64,000 nucleotides of DNA from Sulfurospirillaceae bacterium (GTDB lineage: Bacteria > Campylobacterota > Campylobacteria > Campylobacterales > Sulfurospirillaceae). A program made the translations under genes and the position numbers. This document shows positions 1-18,341 of this stretch, piece by piece (positions within the stretch are counted from its first letter, which is position 1; every line of letters starts with the position of its first letter). The notes beneath the pieces are model-generated. The model saw only the letters and a program-made list of their open reading frames with translations, was not told the DNA's origin and made no database searches. The stretch lies in assembly GCA_028692875.1 (NCBI GenBank), contig JAQUWL010000001.1:1-64000 (forward strand). The letters are read 5' to 3'.

Positions 1-318
1 ATAAGAGAGTTTTTTCACGCAACAAGCGAAAAAGTTAACATAGCAAAAAATGTAGAGTATGATGAAAAAACACATAGTTAATATGTTGAGGGCAAAGAGG
101 TTTTTTTGCAAAATAAAGAGGCGAAACTGCTAAAGCTTTTCTTGCAAAAGCAAAACGAAATCATCCCTCATGAGGTTATTATGCGTGAGCTTTGGGACTA
201 TGAAGAGACGCCAAGCGAGAGTGCATTAAGGACATATATAAAAAATCTGCGAAAAATTATAGGCAAAGATAGGATTGTAAGTGTTAAAAAGTTGGGATAT
301 AAATTTACGCGAGAGTGA
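1..318 (+). pseudogene. OmpR-family response regulator, C-terminal part, with in-frame stop
   Basis: Cut by the left edge of the window; only the end of the gene is seen. Frame 1 encodes the winged-helix DNA-binding domain of an OmpR/PhoB-type regulator: the recognition-helix region (ELWDYEE...ALRTYIKNLRKIIG) and the final hairpin (VKKLGYKF) are both clear. The same frame contains a TAA at 79-81, between DEKTHS and YVEGKEVFL, at a place where the family has an ordinary residue, usually hydrophobic; a single T-to-A change of TTA (Leu) would explain it. Downstream translation could restart only at a weak TTG (106), giving 70 residues without the receiver. The kinase gene overlaps its 3' end, so the pair was one operon. 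It is either a truncated regulator or a sequencing error; the domain call is secure, the pseudogene call less so. Confidence 0.65.
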
Positions 319-1462
319 AAAAAAGACACTCCTCTCTTTTTTGGCTCTATACCTTTTCTTGATGTTTGTGATTTTGCTTTTTGTGGGCGTTTTGTACTAT
401 GTCTCGCAAAAAGAGGTTATGTTGCAAAGCAAGAGAATGGAGCTTTCAGACTTAACCAACGAGCATATAGCAAAACTCAAAGAGCTACATGTAACATTCT
501 ATAAAAATAAAAACTATCCAAGAGACGAGCGTTTTAATTCGGCTATTTACGATAGCTCTCTTAAGCAAATATTCTCAACAACAAAAGCCAAAAAAATCAA
601 TCTTTATGAAGATAGCTACCTTGAAGATGGCAAGATATATTTTATTAAAGAGCTTGAATCGTACTATTTGGGTGCTAGATATATCGCCATAGAAGTTGAT
701 GATGCTGGCATTTGGAAGAAAAAAGTGTACCAAGATTTGGCGATATATGGCAGTATCGTTTTTATGCTTTTGCTCCTTTTTGGATACTTCTTGTTAAATA
801 TTTTGTTGCAACCAATGCGAAACGCTCTTGCTTTGCTTGATAGATTTATCAAAGATACCACGCACGAGTTAAGCACTCCAGTCAATGCCATTATGTCAAA
901 TATTGAGATGATAGATATTGACTCGCTAGATGAGAAGTTGCAAAAAAAGATAAAGCGTATAAATATAGGTGCTAGAACAGTGGCGAACTTGTATCAAGAT
1001 TTGACCTATTTGATGCTTTCTCATAAGATTGTTTCCCATGATGAAGATGTAGATGTGGGGCTTTTGGTAAAAGAGAGAGTTGAGTATTTTTCCCTGTTTT
1101 TGGAGTCTAAAAAAATAGAGTTCAACATAAAAGCACAAGAGCATATAACAGTTCACATAGACCGCAAAAAGTTTGCAAAAGTGGTAGATAACATTTTATC
1201 AAATGCTATAAAATATAATAGTGTTGGCGGAAAGATAGATGTTGAGGTTTCGTCAAATGTTTTAAGCATAGAAGATACAGGAAGGGGAATTGAGCAAAAA
1301 AACATAAAACGTATGTTTGAGAGATATTCAAGATTCGATCCAAGCGTTGGCGGTTTTGGCATAGGTCTTAGCATAGTCTCAATGATAACCAAAGAGTATG
1401 GCTTACATGTAGAGATAAAATCAACCGTTGGAGTGGGTACGAAAGTGAGTATTTCATGGTAA
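281..1462 (+). CDS. Membrane sensor histidine kinase (partner of the preceding regulator)
   Basis: A transmembrane histidine kinase of up to 393 residues. Seen in order: a first membrane helix (about 20-42), a periplasmic sensor region of about 105 residues with no recognised fold, a second membrane helix (about 150-172), an H-box with the phospho-acceptor His195 (THELSTP), and a HATPase domain with an N-box (NILSNAIKYN, about 302-311), G1 (EDTGRGIE) and G2 (FGIGLSIV). The start is uncertain: TTG at 281 overlaps the regulator by 38 nt and lacks a good ribosome site; TTG at 341 or ATG at 362 would cut into the first helix. It overlaps the next cytochrome gene by 7 nt, so translation is probably coupled. 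The kinase looks intact although its regulator carries a stop. The signal sensed is unknown. Confidence 0.85.
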   Translation: MLKSWDINLRESEKKTLLSFLALYLFLMFVILLFVGVLYYVSQKEVMLQSKRMELSDLTNEHIAKLKELHVTFYKNKNYPRDERFNSAIYDSSLKQIFSTTKAKKINLYEDSYLEDGKIYFIKELESYYLGARYIAIEVDDAGIWKKKVYQDLAIYGSIVFMLLLLFGYFLLNILLQPMRNALALLDRFIKDTTHELSTPVNAIMSNIEMIDIDSLDEKLQKKIKRINIGARTVANLYQDLTYLMLSHKIVSHDEDVDVGLLVKERVEYFSLFLESKKIEFNIKAQEHITVHIDRKKFAKVVDNILSNAIKYNSVGGKIDVEVSSNVLSIEDTGRGIEQKNIKRMFERYSRFDPSVGGFGIGLSIVSMITKEYGLHVEIKSTVGVGTKVSISW

Positions 1463-1788
1463 AAATCATTACTATTGTAGTTTTATTTAGTCTATCCTTG
1501 AGTGCAAAAAGTGTTTATGAACAAGATTGTATGTCGTGTCATCAAACAATGGCGGTCAAGATAGACAAATTTTTCTATCGTTATCTTTTAAAGTATAGCA
1601 GTGAAGAGGGTGTCAAAAAAGCGATGACACAGTATTTGAAAAACCCAACTATCCAAAAAACTGTTCTTTCCGATGGGCTTATCAACCGTTTTGGAGTCAA
1701 AAAACCAACCAAGCTTAGCGACAAAGAGCTTCAAGAAGCACTTGATGAGTATTGGGAGATTTATAAAATTTTTGGAAAATTAAAGTAG
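1456..1788 (+). CDS. Small periplasmic monohaem cytochrome c-like protein
   Basis: 110 residues with a short signal peptide (cleavage probably after LSLSAKS) and one haem c motif, C25-M-S-C28-H29. The body is rich in Lys and Tyr and lacks an obvious distal Met motif of the cytochrome c553 type, although Met residues near position 30 and 55 exist, so the sixth ligand is not clear. The ATG overlaps the end of the sensor kinase gene by 7 nt, which makes it part of the two-component operon; it may be an accessory redox sensor or a target of the system. Function is inferred only from the haem motif and signal peptide. Confidence 0.75.
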   Translation: MVKIITIVVLFSLSLSAKSVYEQDCMSCHQTMAVKIDKFFYRYLLKYSSEEGVKKAMTQYLKNPTIQKTVLSDGLINRFGVKKPTKLSDKELQEALDEYWEIYKIFGKLK

Positions 1789-1797
1789 TAAAACAAG

Positions 1798-1816
1798 TTC
1801 ACAATCAATCCACAAT
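1798..1816 (+). promoter_or_regulatory. Paired direct repeat, probable OmpR-type operator (site 1)
   Basis: TTCACAAT at 1798-1805 and TCCACAAT at 1809-1816, start-to-start spacing 11 bp, lie 41 nt upstream of the cytochrome gene at 1857. Tandem half-sites one helical turn apart are the usual binding mode of OmpR/PhoB-family dimers. The same arrangement recurs at 2164-2182 before the next gene. The bound protein is inferred to be the adjacent OmpR-type regulator. Confidence 0.55.
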
Positions 1817-1856
1817 TTGCAGTTAAAGTAACGGTATCAAAACAAAAGGAGATACT

Positions 1857-2153
1857 ATGAAAAAGTTACTTATGATTGCGAGCATTGCTACAGCAACTCT
1901 CTTGATGAGCTCAGATGGAGAAGCTCTTTATAAAAGTTGTGTGCCTTGTCACGGTGCAAAAGCTGAAAAGCCTGCCCTTAACAAATCTCAAGTTATAGCA
2001 AATTGGAGCGAACAACAGATCGCTGACGCACTCAATGGCTATAAAGCCAAAACATACGGTGGTGCTTTAAAAGGTGTTATGGATGCACCAATGAAGACTT
2101 TGGATGCAGAAAAAATAGCGGTACTTTCAAAGTATATAACAACACTAAAGTAA
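1857..2153 (+). CDS. Cytochrome c553-type periplasmic electron carrier
   Basis: 98 residues: signal peptide (1-19), then a class I cytochrome c with haem motif C28-V-P-C31-H32 and candidate axial Met residues in GVMDAPMKTL near the C-terminus, ending in the typical helix (KIAVLSKYITTLK). It resembles the small c553 proteins that carry electrons between bc1 and terminal oxidases or peroxidases in Campylobacterota. AAGGAG is well placed before the ATG. It is separated from the previous gene by 68 nt that hold the paired TTCACAAT repeat, so it probably has its own regulated promoter. Confidence 0.85.
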   Translation: MKKLLMIASIATATLLMSSDGEALYKSCVPCHGAKAEKPALNKSQVIANWSEQQIADALNGYKAKTYGGALKGVMDAPMKTLDAEKIAVLSKYITTLK

Positions 2154-2163
2154 GCATTAAAAA

Positions 2164-2182
2164 TTCACGATTGATTCACAAT
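2164..2182 (+). promoter_or_regulatory. Paired direct repeat, probable OmpR-type operator (site 2)
   Basis: TTCACGAT at 2164-2171 and TTCACAAT at 2175-2182, again 11 bp apart, 39 nt upstream of the ATG at 2221. Same element, orientation and distance to the start codon as at 1798-1816, which argues for a shared regulator. A possible -10 (AAATAT) follows at about 2192. Confidence 0.55.
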
Positions 2183-2220
2183 TTTGATGTAAAATATGCT
2201 CAATAAACAAGGAGGATTAG

Positions 2221-2601
2221 ATGAAAACTCTTAAAACAATACTTATAGCAGGTCTAATAACCATCTCAAGCGTGAGCAATGCTCATGCGATAGGGGATAA
2301 CGAAAGAGCCGCTCTCTGGGGAGCTGGTGCATTATTGCTAGCACCAACGCTTATAAACAATATGGGAAATCTATTTAGCACAGGAGCAACTAGAACCTAT
2401 GAGACTAACACGGTAACGTATGTTGAGCCAAGTAGAAATGTTTACTATGAGCCTCGTGTTGTTGTGCGAGAAGAGCCTGTGTACATTAGAGAAAAAGTTA
2501 TTATTGTTGATGATCACAGACCGTACTACAAGTGGGACAGAAGACATCCGAGCCATCCTAGAGTTATCCATAGAAGTGACTATTATCCACGCTATCGATG
2601 A
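2221..2601 (+). CDS. Small secreted Tyr/Arg/Val-rich protein of unknown function
   Basis: 126 residues with a clear signal peptide ending in SNAHA (about 1-23), a short hydrophobic Gly/Ala-rich stretch (AALWGAGALLLAPTLI, about 31-46), then a strongly basic tail rich in Tyr, Arg, Pro and Val with repeated VREEPVYIREKV-like segments and many His and Tyr near the end (HRPYYKWDRR). No enzyme motif was seen. Strong ribosome site (AAGGAGG). The upstream operator pair and position suggest it belongs to the same regulon as the cytochromes; an envelope or metal-stress protein is possible but not shown. It overlaps the convergent methyltransferase gene by 10 nt. Confidence 0.7.
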   Translation: MKTLKTILIAGLITISSVSNAHAIGDNERAALWGAGALLLAPTLINNMGNLFSTGATRTYETNTVTYVEPSRNVYYEPRVVVREEPVYIREKVIIVDDHRPYYKWDRRHPSHPRVIHRSDYYPRYR

Positions 2602-3374: not shown

Positions 3375-4535
3375 ATGAAAAAGATTTTAGCACTTTTTGT
3401 TTTAGTGCTTATTGTAACCTCTCCTTACTATCTTTTCCACAAAAAATATGATGATTTTGAGATACGACTGGGTATGAGCGGACCTTTTAGTGGGGCATCG
3501 GCTTCTTTAGGAAGAGAGTTTTTGCTCGGCGCAGAGTCGTATTTTAAGTTTCTTAATGAATCTGGTGGCGTTTATGGAAGAAGTATTCATATCGTCAATA
3601 AAGATGACAAGTATGAGCCTAAAATCGCTTTGGAAAATGTAAATAATCTAATCAAAAACGAGAAAGTTTTTGCACTTTTTGGAGTGATTGGCACTTCTGT
3701 TTGCCAAGAAGTTTTTCCTATCGCCATGGAGAAAAGCATTCCTTTTATTGGAGCTTTTTCTGGGGCTGAGTTTTTGCGAAATCCTCCAAACCCACTTGTT
3801 TTAAATGCTCGTGCTAGCGATATGGATGAAACAGAGGCATTGATAAAGTATTTTGTGGACACCCTCCATCTTTCAAAAATAAGTGTTTTTTACCAAAACG
3901 ATACCTATGGTCGTGCTGGCTTGCATGGTGTTCAAAAGGCACTTCAAAAACGGGGCTTGCAAACAGTTAGTGAAGGAAGTTATAAGAGAAACACGCTTTC
4001 CATCGGCAATGCGCTTTATGAAATAGAGATTGCAGACCCAGAAGTAATCGTTATTGTTAGTTCAACCGAGCCTGCCAGTGAGTTTATAGCAAGAGCCAAA
4101 AAAAGTAGCAAAATACGACCTTCTATCAAATTTGCACCGCTCTCTTTTGTGGAGCCTCAAGAGATTGTGCGAGATATGTCGCCTGAAGTCTCTGAAAATA
4201 TTGTTTTTTCGCAAGTGGTTCCATCCCCATGGGATTCGAAGATAAAAGAGGTTGAAAACTATAGACAACTTATGAAAAAATATTTTCCAAAAGAGTCTCT
4301 AAGTTATGTTTCACTTGAAGGCTATTTTGCAGCACGAATGATCTCTAAAGTATTTCAGACGATAGGAAAAGATTTTACTAAAGAGGACTTTATCCAAGAG
4401 TCTGCAAAGCTAACAAAACGGTTTGATGAAAAAGGTCCACGAACAAACAGAGATGAGCAGTGTACATGTTTGCACAAGGCACACCTAAGCCAATATATTA
4501 ATGGAAATTTTCAAACGGTGGGCGATGATGAGTAG
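3375..4535 (+). CDS. Periplasmic substrate-binding protein, LivJ/branched-chain amino acid type
   Basis: 386 residues: an N-terminal hydrophobic signal/anchor (1-20), then a type I periplasmic binding fold (Peripla_BP_6) with the usual opening IRLGMSGPFSG, GGVYGRSIHIVNKDD, FALFGVIGTSV and IPFIGAFSGAE. No ABC permease or ATPase is nearby; instead the gene overlaps or abuts a sensor kinase. In this lineage such orphan binding proteins are commonly encoded with kinases and probably act as ligand receptors for signalling instead of transport; that is an inference from context. The ligand (amino acid, amide or aromatic) is unknown. Confidence 0.85.
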   Translation: MKKILALFVLVLIVTSPYYLFHKKYDDFEIRLGMSGPFSGASASLGREFLLGAESYFKFLNESGGVYGRSIHIVNKDDKYEPKIALENVNNLIKNEKVFALFGVIGTSVCQEVFPIAMEKSIPFIGAFSGAEFLRNPPNPLVLNARASDMDETEALIKYFVDTLHLSKISVFYQNDTYGRAGLHGVQKALQKRGLQTVSEGSYKRNTLSIGNALYEIEIADPEVIVIVSSTEPASEFIARAKKSSKIRPSIKFAPLSFVEPQEIVRDMSPEVSENIVFSQVVPSPWDSKIKEVENYRQLMKKYFPKESLSYVSLEGYFAARMISKVFQTIGKDFTKEDFIQESAKLTKRFDEKGPRTNRDEQCTCLHKAHLSQYINGNFQTVGDDE

Positions 4536-6135
4536 ACCATTTGAGGATTTTATGGCAAGTGTAAACGAGATGACTATCGCTAAAAAAACAAGTTTGCTGT
4601 TTATGATTATGGTGGCGGGAATGTTGTGTATAGGCAGTTTTGCGCATATGAGTATAAATCGCATCAAGGATAATTTTGATATTTTGTATACCAAGCGAAT
4701 GTTGCCTGTTATAAAACTAGAAAATTTAAAAGATATTTTTACGGTCAATGTGTTAGATACTTTGAGAGATATTGAGAAAAACCATATTACTTTTCAGCAA
4801 GGTCAAACGATTATTGTTTTGGCTCAAGAGCTAACAAAACGTGAGTGGAGTGAGTACAAAGAGAGTTTGCTTATTGATGAGAGCGATTGGCTTGTAAAGT
4901 TGGCTCGTTCATGGGGTGTTTTAGACCTCTCTTTGGCTAAGAGTAAACATGTAAGTGAAGAGTTGGTATTGATAGAAAAAATAGAAAAAAAGATTCATAT
5001 GATTGATTCTATTTTATTGAAAATGTTCAATCTTTTTAGAACATCTCAGACGCAAGAGGCCTACGCAACACTCCAATCTGACCTATATCCTAGTGTTTAT
5101 TCGGTCAATATCGATTTGACTCAGCTTGCCAATCTCAATTTTGAAGCCTCCAAAAGAGGGATGAAGCGTACTCAAGCAGTCTATGACAATACTTTTGAGT
5201 GGATAGTTGTAGCAACTGTAGGAACCATCTCTTTGGCGGGGCTTTTGGCGGTGGTATTGTTGCAAAACATTAGACTGTTGCATGCAAATCTTGCCAGAAT
5301 GGTAGAGTTAAAAACTAAAGAGTTACAGGCTTTAAATTATGATTTGGAAGTAAAAATAGCTCATGAAGTAGAGCAGAGTCGGCAAAAAGATGAGATTATG
5401 TTTAGGCAATCAAAACTAGCTTCCATGGGGGAGATGATAGGAAATATCGCTCATCAGTGGCGACAACCGCTCAATGCACTTGTTTTGATTATTCAAAGTT
5501 TTCAGATGAAAAGACTCTCTGGGGCGACTTTGAGTGATGAGTTTATAGATGCTCAAGTAAAAGAGGGGGTCAAGATAGCCTCTTCTATGTCGCAAACGAT
5601 TGATGATTTTAGAAACTTTTTTAAACCAAATAAAACACCTGAGATGTTTGGGATTGAAGAGACGATTAAAAAAAGTGTTGATTTGGTAAAAGGCTACTAC
5701 GAAAAGATAGGCATAACAATCTCTGTTGTATGTCAAAGTGAGCTTTTTGTCAAAGGGTATTCAAATGAGTTTTCACAAGTAATCATGAATCTTCTCTCAA
5801 ACGCAAAAGATGCTCTTGAAGAGAGTTCTTGCAAGGATAAATTGATAGAGATAGTGGTAACTAAAGATGATAAATATGCACATGTCGAAGTTTTTGATAA
5901 TGGAGGGGGTATTTCTAAAGAGGTAATTGAGAGAATGTTTGAGCCTTATTTTACAACCAAACACAAAGCTTTGGGAACTGGTATTGGGCTTCATATGTCG
6001 AAGCAGATTATTGAGAAACAGATGAGAGGAACTATCAGTGCAGATAGCTGTTCTCATATGTTTGCAAATTCAAAATTTTACGAGGCGTGCGCATCTATAA
6101 TTATAAGCATACCTTTTGATAAAAAAGAGGAGTGA
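4528..6135 (+). CDS. HQWRQP-type membrane sensor histidine kinase
   Basis: 535 residues from the ATG at 4528 (ATG at 4525 and 4501 are alternatives). Seen: a membrane helix at about 22-43, a long helical periplasmic region (about 45-235) resembling four-helix-bundle sensors, a second membrane helix (WIVVATVGTISLAGLLAVVLL), a coiled coil, then the H-box with phospho-acceptor H309 in NIAHQWRQPLN, N-box NLLSNAKDALEE, G1 DNGGGI and the FEPYFTTK/GTGIGLHMSK lid region. The preceding binding protein probably contacts its periplasmic domain; the following response regulator, 3 nt downstream, is the likely partner. The stop codon of the binding-protein gene lies within its first codons, so translation is coupled. 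Confidence 0.88.
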   Translation: MSRPFEDFMASVNEMTIAKKTSLLFMIMVAGMLCIGSFAHMSINRIKDNFDILYTKRMLPVIKLENLKDIFTVNVLDTLRDIEKNHITFQQGQTIIVLAQELTKREWSEYKESLLIDESDWLVKLARSWGVLDLSLAKSKHVSEELVLIEKIEKKIHMIDSILLKMFNLFRTSQTQEAYATLQSDLYPSVYSVNIDLTQLANLNFEASKRGMKRTQAVYDNTFEWIVVATVGTISLAGLLAVVLLQNIRLLHANLARMVELKTKELQALNYDLEVKIAHEVEQSRQKDEIMFRQSKLASMGEMIGNIAHQWRQPLNALVLIIQSFQMKRLSGATLSDEFIDAQVKEGVKIASSMSQTIDDFRNFFKPNKTPEMFGIEETIKKSVDLVKGYYEKIGITISVVCQSELFVKGYSNEFSQVIMNLLSNAKDALEESSCKDKLIEIVVTKDDKYAHVEVFDNGGGISKEVIERMFEPYFTTKHKALGTGIGLHMSKQIIEKQMRGTISADSCSHMFANSKFYEACASIIISIPFDKKEE

Positions 6136-6138
6136 GGG

Positions 6139-6804
6139 ATGGATTTTAATGGTCTCAAAGAGTGTGTTGTTTTATACGTTGAAGATGATCAAGCCGTACA
6201 AACACAAACGCAGATGATTTTAAAAGATTTTGTTAAAGAGGTTTATGTTGCCAGTGATGGAGTTGAAGGGCTTAAGATGGCACTAGAGAAGGATGTCGAT
6301 GTTATCGTAAGTGATATTTTGATGCCTAATATGAATGGTATTGAGATGTTGAAGCAACTGAAAAATATCCACAAAATAAACATTCCTACTATCATCACTA
6401 CGGCTTTTACAGAAACTGAGTATTTGATGCAAGCCATTGCGCTAAAAGTCGATGGTTTTATAGTTAAGCCTATCAATATCAAAGACCTTATCAGCGCTAT
6501 ATATTTGGCATTTTTACCAAAATTTCACAAAAAAGAGATACAAGGATGTGCTTTTATAGTTGAGGGGCTATCTGCTTTGGTGGGTGGCAAAAAGATAGCT
6601 ATTTTGCGATATATTATCAAAAATCTGGACGAGGACAATATCTTCAATGGTTCATATCAGGACATCATAGAAAATGTAGGCGTGAGTAAGCCAACGGTGG
6701 TGCAGATGTTTAAACAATTGATAGAGGCTGGAATTTTAGAGAAGATAAAAAACAAAAGTTACCGTTTTAAAAATACAAAATTAATAGGTGAGGAGATAGT
6801 GTGA
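6139..6804 (+). CDS. Response regulator with receiver and atypical winged-helix output
   Basis: 221 residues. The receiver domain (about 8-125) has the acidic pair EDD near the start, phospho-acceptor D59 (VSDILMPN), Thr at TTAFTE and Lys at VKPINI. The C-terminal 90 residues are not OmpR-, NarL- or NtrC-like: they contain [20 protein letters not shown], a helix-turn-helix, followed by [20 protein letters not shown], a wing, similar in shape to MarR/RepL-type winged helices. It is a probable transcription factor driven by the upstream kinase. Its stop overlaps the start of the cyclophilin gene by 4 nt. Confidence 0.85.
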
Positions 6805-9487: not shown

Positions 9488-11551
9488 ATGGAAGCTAGGC
9501 AAATAAGTGTAGAAGATTTTTTATCTTATAAAAAAACACGATTTATTATTCCTGTATATCAAAGAAATTATGATTGGAAAGAAAAGAATTGTCAACAGCT
9601 TTTTGATGATATTGTAAACCTGACAAGCACAAATCGTAAAAGTCACTTTTTAGGCTCAATAGTTTATGTGACAAATAGTGATACGGATTCTATAGATTTA
9701 CGAGAATATGTCATTATTGATGGTCAACAAAGGCTAACGACAGCCACACTTTTTTTAAAAGCACTTCACGATAGCACTAATGATGAAAAAATAAAAGGAG
9801 AAATTTTAGAGGATTTTCTCATCAATCAAAGATTGGATGAAAAAAATAAACTCAAGTTAAAGCCTATAAAAAAAGATGATGAGGTTTTTAAAAAATTACT
9901 CAAGAATGATTTTGATGGAATAGATGAAAATTCAAATATTTATAGAAACTATACTTTTTTTAAGAACAAAATAGAAAAGTTTAATAATCATGAGTCTTTA
10001 TTTAGGGGTTTTCAAAAACTATTTATTGTTCATATTGCATTAAATCGAAGAGATGACAATCCCCAGCTTATCTTTGAAAGTATTAACTCAACAGGTGTGA
10101 GCCTATCACAAGCCGACTTAATTCGCAATTTTTTGTTAATGGATAAAGAAGCGGTTGAACAAGAAGAGTTATTTGAAAAATTTTGGTTTAAAATCGAAGA
10201 GAATATGGGAAGCGAGTATATTTCAAGTTTTATAAGAGATTACCTCACGATGCAACAAGGAAAAATTCCCAATAAAGAAGATACATACGAAGCTTTTAAG
10301 CAGTATGTGCAAAATCATACTATATCAACTACACAACTGCTAGGTAAGCTCTTAGAGTACTCAAAAATTTATAAAACATTTTTATTTGATTCAAGTGAAA
10401 TTTATGCTGGTCATATGAGGCATCTAAGACAGCTCAAAATTGGGGTTGTGTATCCGTTTTTATTGTCATTAGTGGTTGATTATAAGAGTGGAAATATTTC
10501 AGAAAAAGAGCTTTTGACAACTTTTGATATCATAGAAAGTTATGTGGTTAGGCGAATAATTTGCTCTAAACCTACGAATGCTTTGAATAAAATTTTTGCT
10601 TCATTATTTGATGAGATTAAAAGTATTGAAAAATTTAGTTATGAAAAGTTCAGTAGTTATTTTGTGAGTGTTTTGTTATCAAAAAGGGGTTCAGGAGTAT
10701 TTCCAAACGATGAAGATTTTAGGTCTGAGTTTAGCTCAAAAGATGCGTATAATCTAAAAAATATAAGATTCATACTTCTTCGATTAGAAAATAAAGATAA
10801 TAATGAAAAGGTGGATATCAATACCCTTTCTATCGAGCACTTTATGCCTCAGACATTATCAAATTCATGGAAAGTTAAATTGGGCGACAAATATCAGCAG
10901 ATACACGATAGATATTTGCACAACATTGGTAATTTATCACTTTCTGGGGACAATACACAACTTGGCAATAAATCATTTGAAGAGAAAAAGCAAATCCTAA
11001 AAGAAAAAAGCAGGCTAAAACTCAATCAATATTTTATAGAATCTGATAGTTGGGGCGAAGAAGAGATAAGCCAAAGAGCCAATTTTTTATTTGCAGAAGC
11101 TCAAAATTTATGGCGATATCCAAAAGAGTTGGCTTTGGAATTGGAGTTAAAAAATGATGATAAAGAATTTTATACACTTGATGATGAAGTAGATGTTACG
11201 AATACAAAGCCATTATATTTTGAATTTTTAGGTGAAAAAGTAAAGGTAAATTCTTGGAGTGACCTATTTTTAAAAACAATGGAAAAATTAGTGGAACTTG
11301 ATAGTGATATTGCTAAATCTTTATTAATTGATGATGATTTAAGTGGTAAAAAACAAAGAATCATTTCTTGTTCAGAAGATAATGTAAGAAAGCCATTTAA
11401 ATTAAAAGATAATTTTTTTGTGGAAACAAATTTAAGTGCTAAAGGTATTATGAATTACACCAAGTTGATTTGTGAAAAATTTGGTTTGAGTGGCGATGAT
11501 TTTGTATATGCTGTCTTAGAAAAAAGTGAAGTAACAAAAAATGATGGATAA
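9488..11551 (+). CDS. GmrSD-like DUF262/DUF1524 protein, probable anti-phage nuclease
   Basis: 687 residues. The N-terminal DUF262 domain has the conserved FIIPVYQRNYDW start and IIDGQQRLTT, the ParB-like nucleotide-binding/hydrolysing motif, followed by FESINSTGVSLSQADLIRN. The DUF1524 region has LSIEHFMPQTL and LHNIGNLSLSGDNTQLGN, an HNH-type nuclease core. This order is that of GmrSD-family type IV restriction enzymes, which cut modified phage DNA. A C-terminal extension of about 110 residues (from PLYFEFLGEKVKV) resembles the accessory domain seen in some family members. The gene looks complete, with an ATG at 9488 and a weak ribosome site (GGAG), between decayed genes. Substrate modification is unknown. 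Confidence 0.85.
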   Translation: MEARQISVEDFLSYKKTRFIIPVYQRNYDWKEKNCQQLFDDIVNLTSTNRKSHFLGSIVYVTNSDTDSIDLREYVIIDGQQRLTTATLFLKALHDSTNDEKIKGEILEDFLINQRLDEKNKLKLKPIKKDDEVFKKLLKNDFDGIDENSNIYRNYTFFKNKIEKFNNHESLFRGFQKLFIVHIALNRRDDNPQLIFESINSTGVSLSQADLIRNFLLMDKEAVEQEELFEKFWFKIEENMGSEYISSFIRDYLTMQQGKIPNKEDTYEAFKQYVQNHTISTTQLLGKLLEYSKIYKTFLFDSSEIYAGHMRHLRQLKIGVVYPFLLSLVVDYKSGNISEKELLTTFDIIESYVVRRIICSKPTNALNKIFASLFDEIKSIEKFSYEKFSSYFVSVLLSKRGSGVFPNDEDFRSEFSSKDAYNLKNIRFILLRLENKDNNEKVDINTLSIEHFMPQTLSNSWKVKLGDKYQQIHDRYLHNIGNLSLSGDNTQLGNKSFEEKKQILKEKSRLKLNQYFIESDSWGEEEISQRANFLFAEAQNLWRYPKELALELELKNDDKEFYTLDDEVDVTNTKPLYFEFLGEKVKVNSWSDLFLKTMEKLVELDSDIAKSLLIDDDLSGKKQRIISCSEDNVRKPFKLKDNFFVETNLSAKGIMNYTKLICEKFGLSGDDFVYAVLEKSEVTKNDG

Positions 11552-11955: not shown

Positions 11956-12963
11956 ATGACTCATACACTTTATTCCCCTTTGGATATGCATCTACATCTT
12001 CGTGATAGTGCAATGCTTCAAACGGTGGCACCTCTTAGTGCGCAGAGTTTTTCAGGTGGACTTATAATGCCAAATCTTGTTCCGCCAGTTTCAACCATCA
12101 GCGGTGTTTTAGAGTATCAACAACGCATTAAAGAGGCAACAAAAAACGAGACTTTTGAGCCGTTGATGACTCTGTTTTTTCGCTCGGACTATACAAGAGA
12201 GTTTTTACAGCAAGCATCTTTACATGTAAAGGCGTTGAAGCTCTATCCTTCGGGTATTACGACAAATTCTGAAGGTGGCGTGGCAAGTATGGATGTTGAA
12301 GTGTTGCGACCTGTTCTTCAAGCGATGAGCGATTTGGGGCTTGTTTTGTGTGTGCATGGCGAAACAAATGGCTTTGTGATGGATAGGGAAAAAGAGTTTT
12401 GCAATATTTATGAGGATTTAGCATCGGCTTTCCCAAAACTCAAAATCATTATGGAGCATATCACCACTTGTGAAAGTGTGGCACTTTTGGATAAGTATGA
12501 AAATCTCTATGCAACGATAACTCTCCATCATCTTTTGATTACTCTTGATGATGTTGTAGGTGGTATGTTGAAGCCCCATCTTTTTTGCAAACCCATCGCC
12601 AAGCGATATGAGGACAAAGAAGCACTCTTACATGTAGCTCTTCAAGCACATCCAAAAGTAATGTTCGGTAGCGATTCAGCACCTCATCCTATCTCAAAAA
12701 AAGAGTGTTGCGGTTGTGCGGCTGGTGTTTTTACTTCCCCGATAGCTCTTCAAGCACTTGCGGAGTTGTTTGACAAACACAATGCGTTAGCTTCGTTACA
12801 ATCATTTGTGAGTAACAACGCACAAGCTATATATGCGTATACACCGCCTTTTAAAGAGGTTGTGTTAGTAAAAGTGCCTTATCGTGTGCCTAACAGTTAC
12901 GGCGATGTTGTGCCTATGTTTGCCGATGAGACTTTGGCGTGGAGCATACAGAGTGTCCGCTAA
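11956..12963 (+). CDS. pyrC: Dihydroorotase, class II
   Basis: 335 residues, the length of the E. coli-type homodimeric enzyme. Metal ligands are visible: H12 and H14 (DMHLHLRD), the carbamylated Lys region (HVKALKLYP), His in CVHGE and MEHITT, and the catalytic Asp in [10 protein letters not shown]. It cyclises N-carbamoyl-aspartate to dihydroorotate in pyrimidine synthesis. The 3' end overlaps the next gene (GTG at 12953) by 11 nt. Confidence 0.96.
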
Positions 12964-13618
12964 AATACTAATTCTTGAAGATAACACATTGCTACTTGAG
13001 ACACTAGAAGAGTTCTTGAGTGAGCAAGGATATCATTGTGTTTTGGCGGACAATGGCAAAAAAGCACTCAATAAGTGCTACAAGGAAAAGTTTGACCTTT
13101 ATCTTTTAGATGTAAAAGTGCCAGAAGTAGATGGATTTGAGTTTTTGCAAGAGATGAGAGACTCTGGCGATACTACGCCTGCTATTTTTTTAACATCCGC
13201 TACCGAAAAAGAGAGTCTAGAGCGTGGTTTTTTTGTCGGCGGAGATGATTATATTAGAAAACCATTTGATTTGATGGAGCTTTTGCTAAGAGTTAAAGCG
13301 GTGCTTTCTCGTTCAAAAAGCTATGCAGATGCGTTGATAAAAATAGACGATACTTATAGTTTAAACACCTCTCGTAAAAGACTTTTATGCAATAACGAAG
13401 AGATGGATTTGCATTTGAAAGATTATGAGTTATTGTATTTGCTCATTAAGGACAGAGGTAAAATTGTTACCAAAGATATGATAAAAGAAGAGCTTTGGAA
13501 CAATGATGAAGAGATAAGCGAAGGTGCCATTAGGGTTTACATCAATAACCTAAAAAAAATATTTGGCAAAAAAGCAATTACCAACTCTAGAGGCATTGGT
13601 TATAGATTTGAACTCTAA
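12953..13618 (+). CDS. OmpR-family response regulator
   Basis: 221 residues from the GTG at 12953 ([11 protein letters not shown]), which overlaps pyrC; longer starts would be inside pyrC and add residues unlike the family. Receiver: acidic pair ED, phospho-acceptor D53 (LLDVKVP), Thr/Ser at LTSAT and Lys at RKPFDL. Output: OmpR winged helix with [23 protein letters not shown] and the C-terminal GIGYRFEL hairpin. It resembles the regulator at the left edge. Targets are unknown; the sensor kinase gene overlaps its 3' end. Confidence 0.9.
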
Positions 13619-14495
13619 AAACAACCACTTTTTAATGCGAGGAATCCTAGTTTTTTCTATTGCATGTATAGTGTTGGCGTGTTTGAGTGTTGCATCTTTT
13701 GCTTATTGCGATACTTTGACTTTGCGTATAGCGTGGTTTGTCGGTGTTGTTTTTTTGAGTTTGGGTGTGGCATACATAAGCTCTTTGTATCTACTTTTTC
13801 CGCTATTTAAAACCAATAGACTTTTGGATTTGTTACTAAAAGATACACTGCACGAATTAAATGTTCCGCTATCTGTGATTAAGGCAAATCTTCAAATGCT
13901 AAAAATGGGCGAAACGCAAGAAAATAAGTTAAAAAAGATTGAGAGAATAGAGCTAGCAAGTGACGATTTGTACGGACTTTACAAGGATGTTGACTACTAC
14001 ATTAAGCGTGAAATTCAAGATGAGATTAGAGAGGTTTTTGACGTAAAAGATATTGTTGATAAAGAGGTTGGAAAATTTTTAGAGATATACAAAGAGACTA
14101 AAATCATCCAAGATGTTTCCTCTAAAGAGCTTTTTGCGGACAAAAAAGGATTTTCAAAAGTGATAAACAATCTTCTGTTCAATGCTTTAAAATATAACAA
14201 AAATAGTGCCGATGTCACGGTATCACTAAAAGATACAACGATTTGCATTGAAGATAAGGGAATTGGGATGAGCGAATCTGAACTTTTTTTGGTGTTCGAT
14301 AGATATTATCGTGGTGAAAATGAAAAAAAAGAGGGCTACGGCATAGGGCTTAGCATCGTTAAGGCTTATTGTGATGAGTCAAAAATCCCCATCAAAATTA
14401 CCTCAAAAAAAGGCTTAGGAACTTGTGTAAGTCTAGACATATCTCGCATTTTATATAAAAATGATATCATAACAAGCGAGCAACAAAGAGCATAA
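13608..14495 (+). CDS. Short membrane histidine kinase without a periplasmic sensor domain
   Basis: About 295 residues if it starts at TTG 13608 (TTG 13563 or ATG 13635 are possible). Two membrane helices (about 12-31 and 36-62) are separated by only a few residues, so there is almost no extracytoplasmic sensor. The H-box holds H82 (LHELNVP), followed by an N-box (NNLLFNALKYN), G1 (EDKGIGM) and G2 (YGIGLSIV). It belongs to the same subfamily as the kinase at 281-1462. Such layouts sense the membrane itself or a partner protein. It overlaps its regulator. Confidence 0.82.
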   Translation: MNSKNNHFLMRGILVFSIACIVLACLSVASFAYCDTLTLRIAWFVGVVFLSLGVAYISSLYLLFPLFKTNRLLDLLLKDTLHELNVPLSVIKANLQMLKMGETQENKLKKIERIELASDDLYGLYKDVDYYIKREIQDEIREVFDVKDIVDKEVGKFLEIYKETKIIQDVSSKELFADKKGFSKVINNLLFNALKYNKNSADVTVSLKDTTICIEDKGIGMSESELFLVFDRYYRGENEKKEGYGIGLSIVKAYCDESKIPIKITSKKGLGTCVSLDISRILYKNDIITSEQQRA

Positions 14496-18153: not shown

Positions 18154-18246
18154 TTAACGAAAATTTGGATACCATTCCTAAGGTTTAGAGGTAAGGTTTT
18201 ATAAAAAATAAAAAATAAAAATATTTTTATTCACTAAGGCTTCACA

Positions 18247-18282
18247 CGATGGATGCCCCAAAGCTAAAGCTTTGACCCATCG
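18247..18282. other. Long hairpin in the leader of the Fur-family gene
   Basis: CGATGG (18247-18252) pairs with CCATCG (18277-18282) and, inside, CAAAGCT (18259-18265) pairs with AGCTTTG (18268-18274) around AA, leaving an internal bulge. It sits 60 nt upstream of the ATG at 18342 in an otherwise AT-rich leader. It could be an attenuator, RNA leader structure or decayed mobile end; no known riboswitch was recognised. Confidence 0.45.
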
Positions 18283-18341
18283 GTTGCAGAGTCGTTCATA
18301 AAAAATATTTTGATTTTTTAAAATAGGGAATTTTGTACAAA

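Follow-up and report, generated by a model that had tools for sequence, protein, structure and literature searches.

The stretch of DNA analysed here (the window, 64 kb) forms the beginning of contig C10 in the 1.94-Mb genome of a Sulfurospirillaceae bacterium. Close to its beginning, an OmpR-type two-component system is followed by genes for small exported proteins, and two of these genes are preceded by a pair of direct repeats. This raises the question of whether the repeats are operators and, if so, by which regulator they are read and for which genes. Judged from sequence and conservation, the two boxes are most probably activator sites of the adjacent regulator, a DccR-like member of the OmpR family, and would define a small self-amplifying regulon of the envelope and periplasm with targets of its own.

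The boxes and their gene neighbourhood

The first direct repeat, TTCACAATCAATCCACAAT, was identified at 1798-1816 and the second, TTCACGATTGATTCACAAT, at 2164-2182. Each is one mismatch away from TTCACAAT-N3-TTCACAAT, the half-sites have a period of 11 bp, one helical turn, in both pairs, and about 40 nt separate the end of each pair from the ATG codon that follows it (1857 and 2221). These repeats, their spacing and their distance from the start codons had been described in a first-pass annotation of the sequence and were all found again at 1798 and 2164. The same is true for the OmpR-type two-component system which it had placed upstream, since a Trans_reg_C domain was identified in the regulator, and HisKA and HATPase_c domains in the kinase (Table 1). 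A fuller description of the element is TTCAC-N6-TTCAC-N10-TANNNT, with TTCAC-N6-TTCAC as the core, spanning 1798-1829 and 2164-2195. The N6 and N10 spacer sequences of box 1 and box 2 are unlike each other, so that what the two sites have in common is mainly the half-sites and the way these are spaced. A scan for sigma-70 promoters that include a -35 match gave none at either box, which implied that the second half-site occupies the place of the -35 hexamer.

Table 1. Features at the start of the window; positions are those of the window.
Feature	Position	Strand	Basis and remarks
3' part of the OmpR-type response regulator gene	1..318	+	Trans_reg_C; 5' part on contig C32
Sensor histidine kinase	281..1462	+	HisKA and HATPase_c (Pfam)
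110-aa exported c-type-cytochrome-like protein, in the kinase operon, no box	1456..1788	+	CMSCH motif
Box 1, TTCAC-N6-TCCAC direct repeat, 11-bp period	1798..1813	+	59 nt before ATG 1857; sequence, conservation
Predicted -10 hexamer TAAAGT, N10 after box 1	1824..1829	+	sequence, spacing kept in relatives
98-aa exported class I cytochrome c, CVPCH heme motif	1857..2153	+	Pfam Cytochrom_C 1.7e-7
Box 2, perfect TTCAC-N6-TTCAC	2164..2179	+	57 nt before ATG 2221; sequence, conservation
Predicted -10 hexamer TAAAAT, N10 after box 2	2190..2195	+	sequence, spacing in relatives
126-aa exported Tyr/Arg-rich protein	2221..2601	+	no Pfam family; homologs in 17 relatives

The regulator gene is cut at the contig start. 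The joined regulator consists of 224 amino acids and contains a receiver domain (Response_reg, 7.6e-21) and a winged-helix domain (Trans_reg_C, 1e-16). Contig C32 and the window overlap at their starts over 206 bp with six mismatches, all of them within the first ~85 bp of the window, and one of the six creates an in-frame stop. The mismatches at 1-85 look like contig-end sequence errors, and the first bases of the window are therefore not to be trusted. On contig C32, a third site was identified at 801-832 upstream of a DUF1104 gene; it reads TCCAC-N6-GTCAC-N10-TATGCT and contains two mismatches. The gene order of the cluster is thus weak box, DUF1104, regulator, kinase, cytochrome-like gene, box 1, cytochrome c, box 2 and Tyr/Arg-rich protein. 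For the product of the cytochrome-like gene at 1456, Cytochrome_CBB3 was obtained at 0.0018, below the cut-off.

Further downstream, the window contains genes for a periplasmic binding protein, a 4HB_MCP-sensor kinase and a response regulator (3375-6804); the output domain of this response regulator is similar to the winged helix of RepL, a plasmid replication protein. The gene at 9488-11551, possibly a defence gene, codes for a 687-aa restriction endonuclease of the GmrSD type. A second OmpR-type regulator and kinase are encoded at 12953-14495, overlapping the end of an amidohydrolase-type gene.

Occurrence and conservation of the box

Within the window, a 13-letter element, which was defined partly from the two sites themselves, was found with at most one mismatch twice on the + strand and not at all on the - strand, compared to a mean of 0.1 for one strand of 64 kb in Markov sequences. 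Its chance occurrence per intergenic gap was estimated at ~2.5e-4 and 5e-5 for the two gaps. Since the element was derived in part from these sites, it is their conservation that provides an independent test. At a loose threshold of three mismatches, four matches were identified in the window versus 2.05 expected, which is not significant.

For the home genome, the first-pass annotation had named a lack of genome-wide enrichment of its exact motif, beforehand, as a finding that would speak against its reading. With at most two mismatches, this motif gave five sites versus four for the reversed control, and perfect TTCAC-N6-TTCAC cores were found six times versus seven in the reversed control, so that neither is enriched. 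The other five perfect cores of the home genome are located inside coding sequence or in an interspersed repeat. A copy of this repeat which contains the core is present in the window at 18230-18294 (TTCACTAAGGCTTCACACGATG ... GACCCATCGGTTGCAGAGTCG), and it recurs at position 9396 of contig C13. In the home genome, the sites that look functional are limited to those of the cluster, namely box 1, box 2 and the weak box on contig C32, and enrichment is absent because the regulon seems to be confined to this cluster. The results support the view that the earlier reading was right in substance, while its exact motif and the enrichment test are not the best description.

At 1e-20, 56 of 60 genomes were found to contain relatives of the kinase; at 1e-90, the number is 40 of 60, with the home genome counted. 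For 29 kinase loci (L007-L035) the flanks were inspected, and 23 of these contain an ortholog of the cytochrome encoded at 1857; none was present in the flanks of L011, L012, L019, L031, L034 and L035. The window itself is represented by the loci L006 and L036, which were left out of these 23 orthologs and of the 18 homologs of the gene at 2221 and were included in the 31 rows for the gene at 1456. A box with at most one mismatch precedes 20 of the 23 cytochrome orthologs (19 perfect, one with one mismatch), at a shuffle expectation of ~0.4% per promoter. For the other three, two mismatches were found in L024 and L026 and no box in L032, where it is located before the neighbouring 107-aa gene instead of the cytochrome gene.

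For the Tyr/Arg-rich protein, homologs are present in one other genus only, with 35-51% protein identity, and a box was identified before all 18 genes from 17 relatives (17 perfect, one with one mismatch). In this related genus, the gene is located ~10 kb or more away from the two-component genes, with the box kept, as for example in L183. In genome G028, two tandem genes for Tyr/Arg-rich proteins are present, each with its own box, of which one is perfect and one has one mismatch (L043; L054 repeats the same genes). The conserved sites fit the small regulon proposed earlier, which consists of a cytochrome and a Tyr/Arg-rich protein.

In these cytochrome orthologs and Tyr/Arg-rich homologs, the box starts ~54-74 nt before the start codon, and its spacing to the -10 hexamer is fixed. 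When 38 sites were aligned, the final T of the -10 hexamer and a T three bases past the second half-site were each present in 38 of 38; 36 of these sites had been chosen for perfect half-sites and the TA, and the final T of the -10 hexamer was not selected for. Before the internal gene at 1456, no box was found in any of the 31 rows (29 relatives and two window copies). At the head of the DUF1104 operon in the related genus, a box with at most one mismatch was identified in only 3 of 24 rows, which showed that autoregulation via the box would not be general.

On the level of whole genomes, the perfect 32-bp element was found 87 times in the 60 genomes, versus 12 times for the reversed pattern. 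At least one perfect box is present in 34 of the 40 genomes with an ortholog of the kinase and in 7 of the 20 genomes without it (Fisher p = 2.2e-4, uncorrected for relatedness). That the repeats have the form of OmpR/PhoB-type operators, as predicted in the first-pass annotation, is supported by this association together with the conserved position, the spacing to the -10 hexamer, the absence of the box before the gene at 1456 and its occurrence in Campylobacter genomes with DccRS. In relatives, other genes behind perfect boxes code for glycine-zipper proteins (L106), a DUF2202 protein (L101), a Cys-rich lipoprotein-like protein (L123) and a 107-aa protein (L104), the last two of which belong to no Pfam family. 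A homolog of the glycine-zipper target of the relatives was not found in the home genome.

The proposed regulator and its mode of action

From the anatomy and the conservation of the boxes, we infer binding and phosphorylation of the regulator, activation and a signal, which may be connected as follows. The kinase would sense a periplasmic condition and phosphorylate the regulator. The phosphorylated regulator would bind to both half-sites in a head-to-tail arrangement, on the same face of the DNA helix, replace the missing -35 contact and recruit sigma-70 RNA polymerase. By this, the cytochrome c gene at 1857 and the Tyr/Arg-rich gene at 2221 would be switched on, and the weaker box on contig C32 would act on the regulator's own operon, coding for the DUF1104 protein, the regulator, the kinase and the second cytochrome. 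For the Cpx system, CpxP is the periplasmic feedback partner; by analogy, one might guess at a similar role for the DUF1104 protein.

Activation rather than repression is suggested by the geometry of the box, since a PhoB-type arrangement with ~10 bp to the -10 hexamer is typical of activators. A repressor operator, at which the regulator blocks the -35 region, is unlikely: the box does cover the -35 position, but there is no -35 hexamer left to block. The related ArsR of H. pylori is described as an activator or a repressor (PMC2736386), whereas DccR is described as enhancing transcription (PMC9449129). It is quite unlikely, too, that the boxes are real and are read mainly by another OmpR-type regulator. 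The most plausible one would be the paralog encoded at 12953-13618, which is 40% identical to the first regulator, is the second-best match of C. jejuni DccR in the home genome (177 bits) and has a related recognition helix. However, this helix differs at several positions, and the paralog has no box near its own genes, the window containing just two sites with at most one mismatch. Furthermore, in the relatives the cytochrome box directly follows the operon of the first regulator, and the presence of the box tracks the first kinase.

That the repeats resemble operators by chance, or go back to a duplicated stretch of promoter which no regulator reads, is highly improbable. The missing excess in the home genome at loose thresholds would fit this reading, but the box is conserved among the 23 cytochrome orthologs and across 17 relatives in which the Tyr/Arg-rich protein has diverged to 35-51% identity. 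The spacers speak against it as well: box 1 and box 2 have different N6 and N10 sequences, whereas their half-sites and spacing have been retained.

A regulon with three promoters in one cluster, cytochromes c included, which the adjacent regulator is predicted to activate, would be a simple place to learn what the sensor detects, and the conserved box can be used directly to search for target genes throughout the order. For DccRS, the signal and the functions of the targets are poorly known. In a literature search, in which subscription journals were barely covered, no description of such a regulon outside Campylobacter was found.

Comparison to known two-component systems

The cre/blr tag of E. 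coli and Aeromonas is given as TTCAC-N6-TTCAC (PMC4689548, PMC3660660), which is the same form as the box in the window. The E. coli creD promoter contains TTCACCGTCACTTCAC, confirming this form of the cre tag. By model score, the identity of the window regulator as CreB was ruled out (110 bits versus a cut-off of 273), as was that of the kinase as CreC (77 bits versus 356). Since the tag has the same form and the window proteins are not CreBC, this operator form is known in at least one other branch of the OmpR family. Like the repeats in the window, those of the Pho box of PhoB are direct, have an 11-bp period and occupy the -35 position. However, its half-sites have another sequence, and the window regulator reached only 112 bits compared to the PhoB cut-off of 296.

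For a comparison with Campylobacter, 20 genomes from two families, picked by a search for a major-outer-membrane-protein family, were analysed. The element was identified in 11 of these 20 genomes, with 21 sites versus none in the controls. A scan with the regulator of G209, which carries a near-box, led to named loci of C. jejuni. Here, the genes are arranged in the order hemerythrin, regulator, kinase, groEL and groES, which, with the genes named by eye, fits dccRS. For the G209 regulator, which is encoded near a porin gene, an assignment as RacR was rejected, because its counterpart in the named C. jejuni loci has hemerythrin and groESL as neighbours, which mark it as DccR. The DccR box is said to read TTCAC-N6-TTCAC, as reportedly described by Wosten in 2010. 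An adjacency of groEL and dccS is listed in Table 5 of PMC5447181. In PMC9449129, DccRS of C. jejuni is given under the locus numbers Cj1223c-Cj1222c and is described as required for full colonisation.

In C. jejuni 414, C. coli C8C3 and C. bilis, 13 perfect sites were identified, 12 of which precede an open reading frame of 109 aa or more; when one mismatch was allowed, 23 sites were found versus 10 in the controls. Of the box genes examined in Campylobacter, one codes for a PepSY_like protein, one for a HlyD/MacA-like protein and one for a protein without a Pfam family. A box with one mismatch is present before the regulator gene in L187 and in G209, G169 and G219, and in L198 and L203, both from C. 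jejuni, no box with at most one mismatch was found before dccR. In another Campylobacter-type genus (L181 of G199, L159 of G159), a box precedes the gene for a low-complexity exported protein rich in Lys, Met and Asp, which is located ahead of the regulator and kinase genes.

On the protein level, C. jejuni DccR and the window regulator share 46% identity (205 bits), and the next of the 11 home OmpR-type regulators compared reached 177 bits; this set is without L062, which is located at a contig end and is 30% identical to the window regulator. The window regulator in turn matched the Campylobacter regulator L208 with 207 bits versus the 205 bits for DccR. Among the three kinases of the window, C. 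jejuni DccS matched the one encoded at 281-1462 best (164 bits versus 112 and 50), aligning over residues 77-393 with 32% identity. In a tree of 65 regulator rows, the window clade was placed as sister to the Campylobacter/Helicobacter clade in which DccR is found, at weak support (85/44). The term DccR-like is thus justified, and one-to-one orthology with DccR is unproven. The recognition helix is nearly the same in both: in the window clade it reads RTYIKNLRKI(I/L/M)GK with hardly any variation, and in Campylobacter R[AV]Y[IV]KNLRKILGK.

The sets of genes behind the boxes comprise cytochromes together with the Tyr/Arg-rich protein, glycine-zipper proteins, DUF2202 proteins, PepSY-like proteins and a MacA-type pump. 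It is conceivable that one operator code, TTCAC-N6-TTCAC located 10 bp before the -10 hexamer, has been kept by the DccR-like family across the order while its targets were almost completely exchanged. In the lineage of the window, this would have resulted in a purely local, self-wired redox-and-envelope regulon, with the regulator operon and the two exported targets as the only sites of the genome. We regard this broader proposal as evenly poised between right and wrong. Like DccRS, the system described here has TTCAC-N6-TTCAC in front of genes for small proteins, which are periplasmic in Campylobacter and secreted in the window. The order of a small exported protein (often DUF1104), regulator and kinase is likewise found in Campylobacter-type and Helicobacter-type relatives. 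The targets differ, since those of DccRS are PepSY-like proteins and a MacA-like pump, whereas the predicted targets in the window are cytochromes c and the Tyr/Arg-rich protein.
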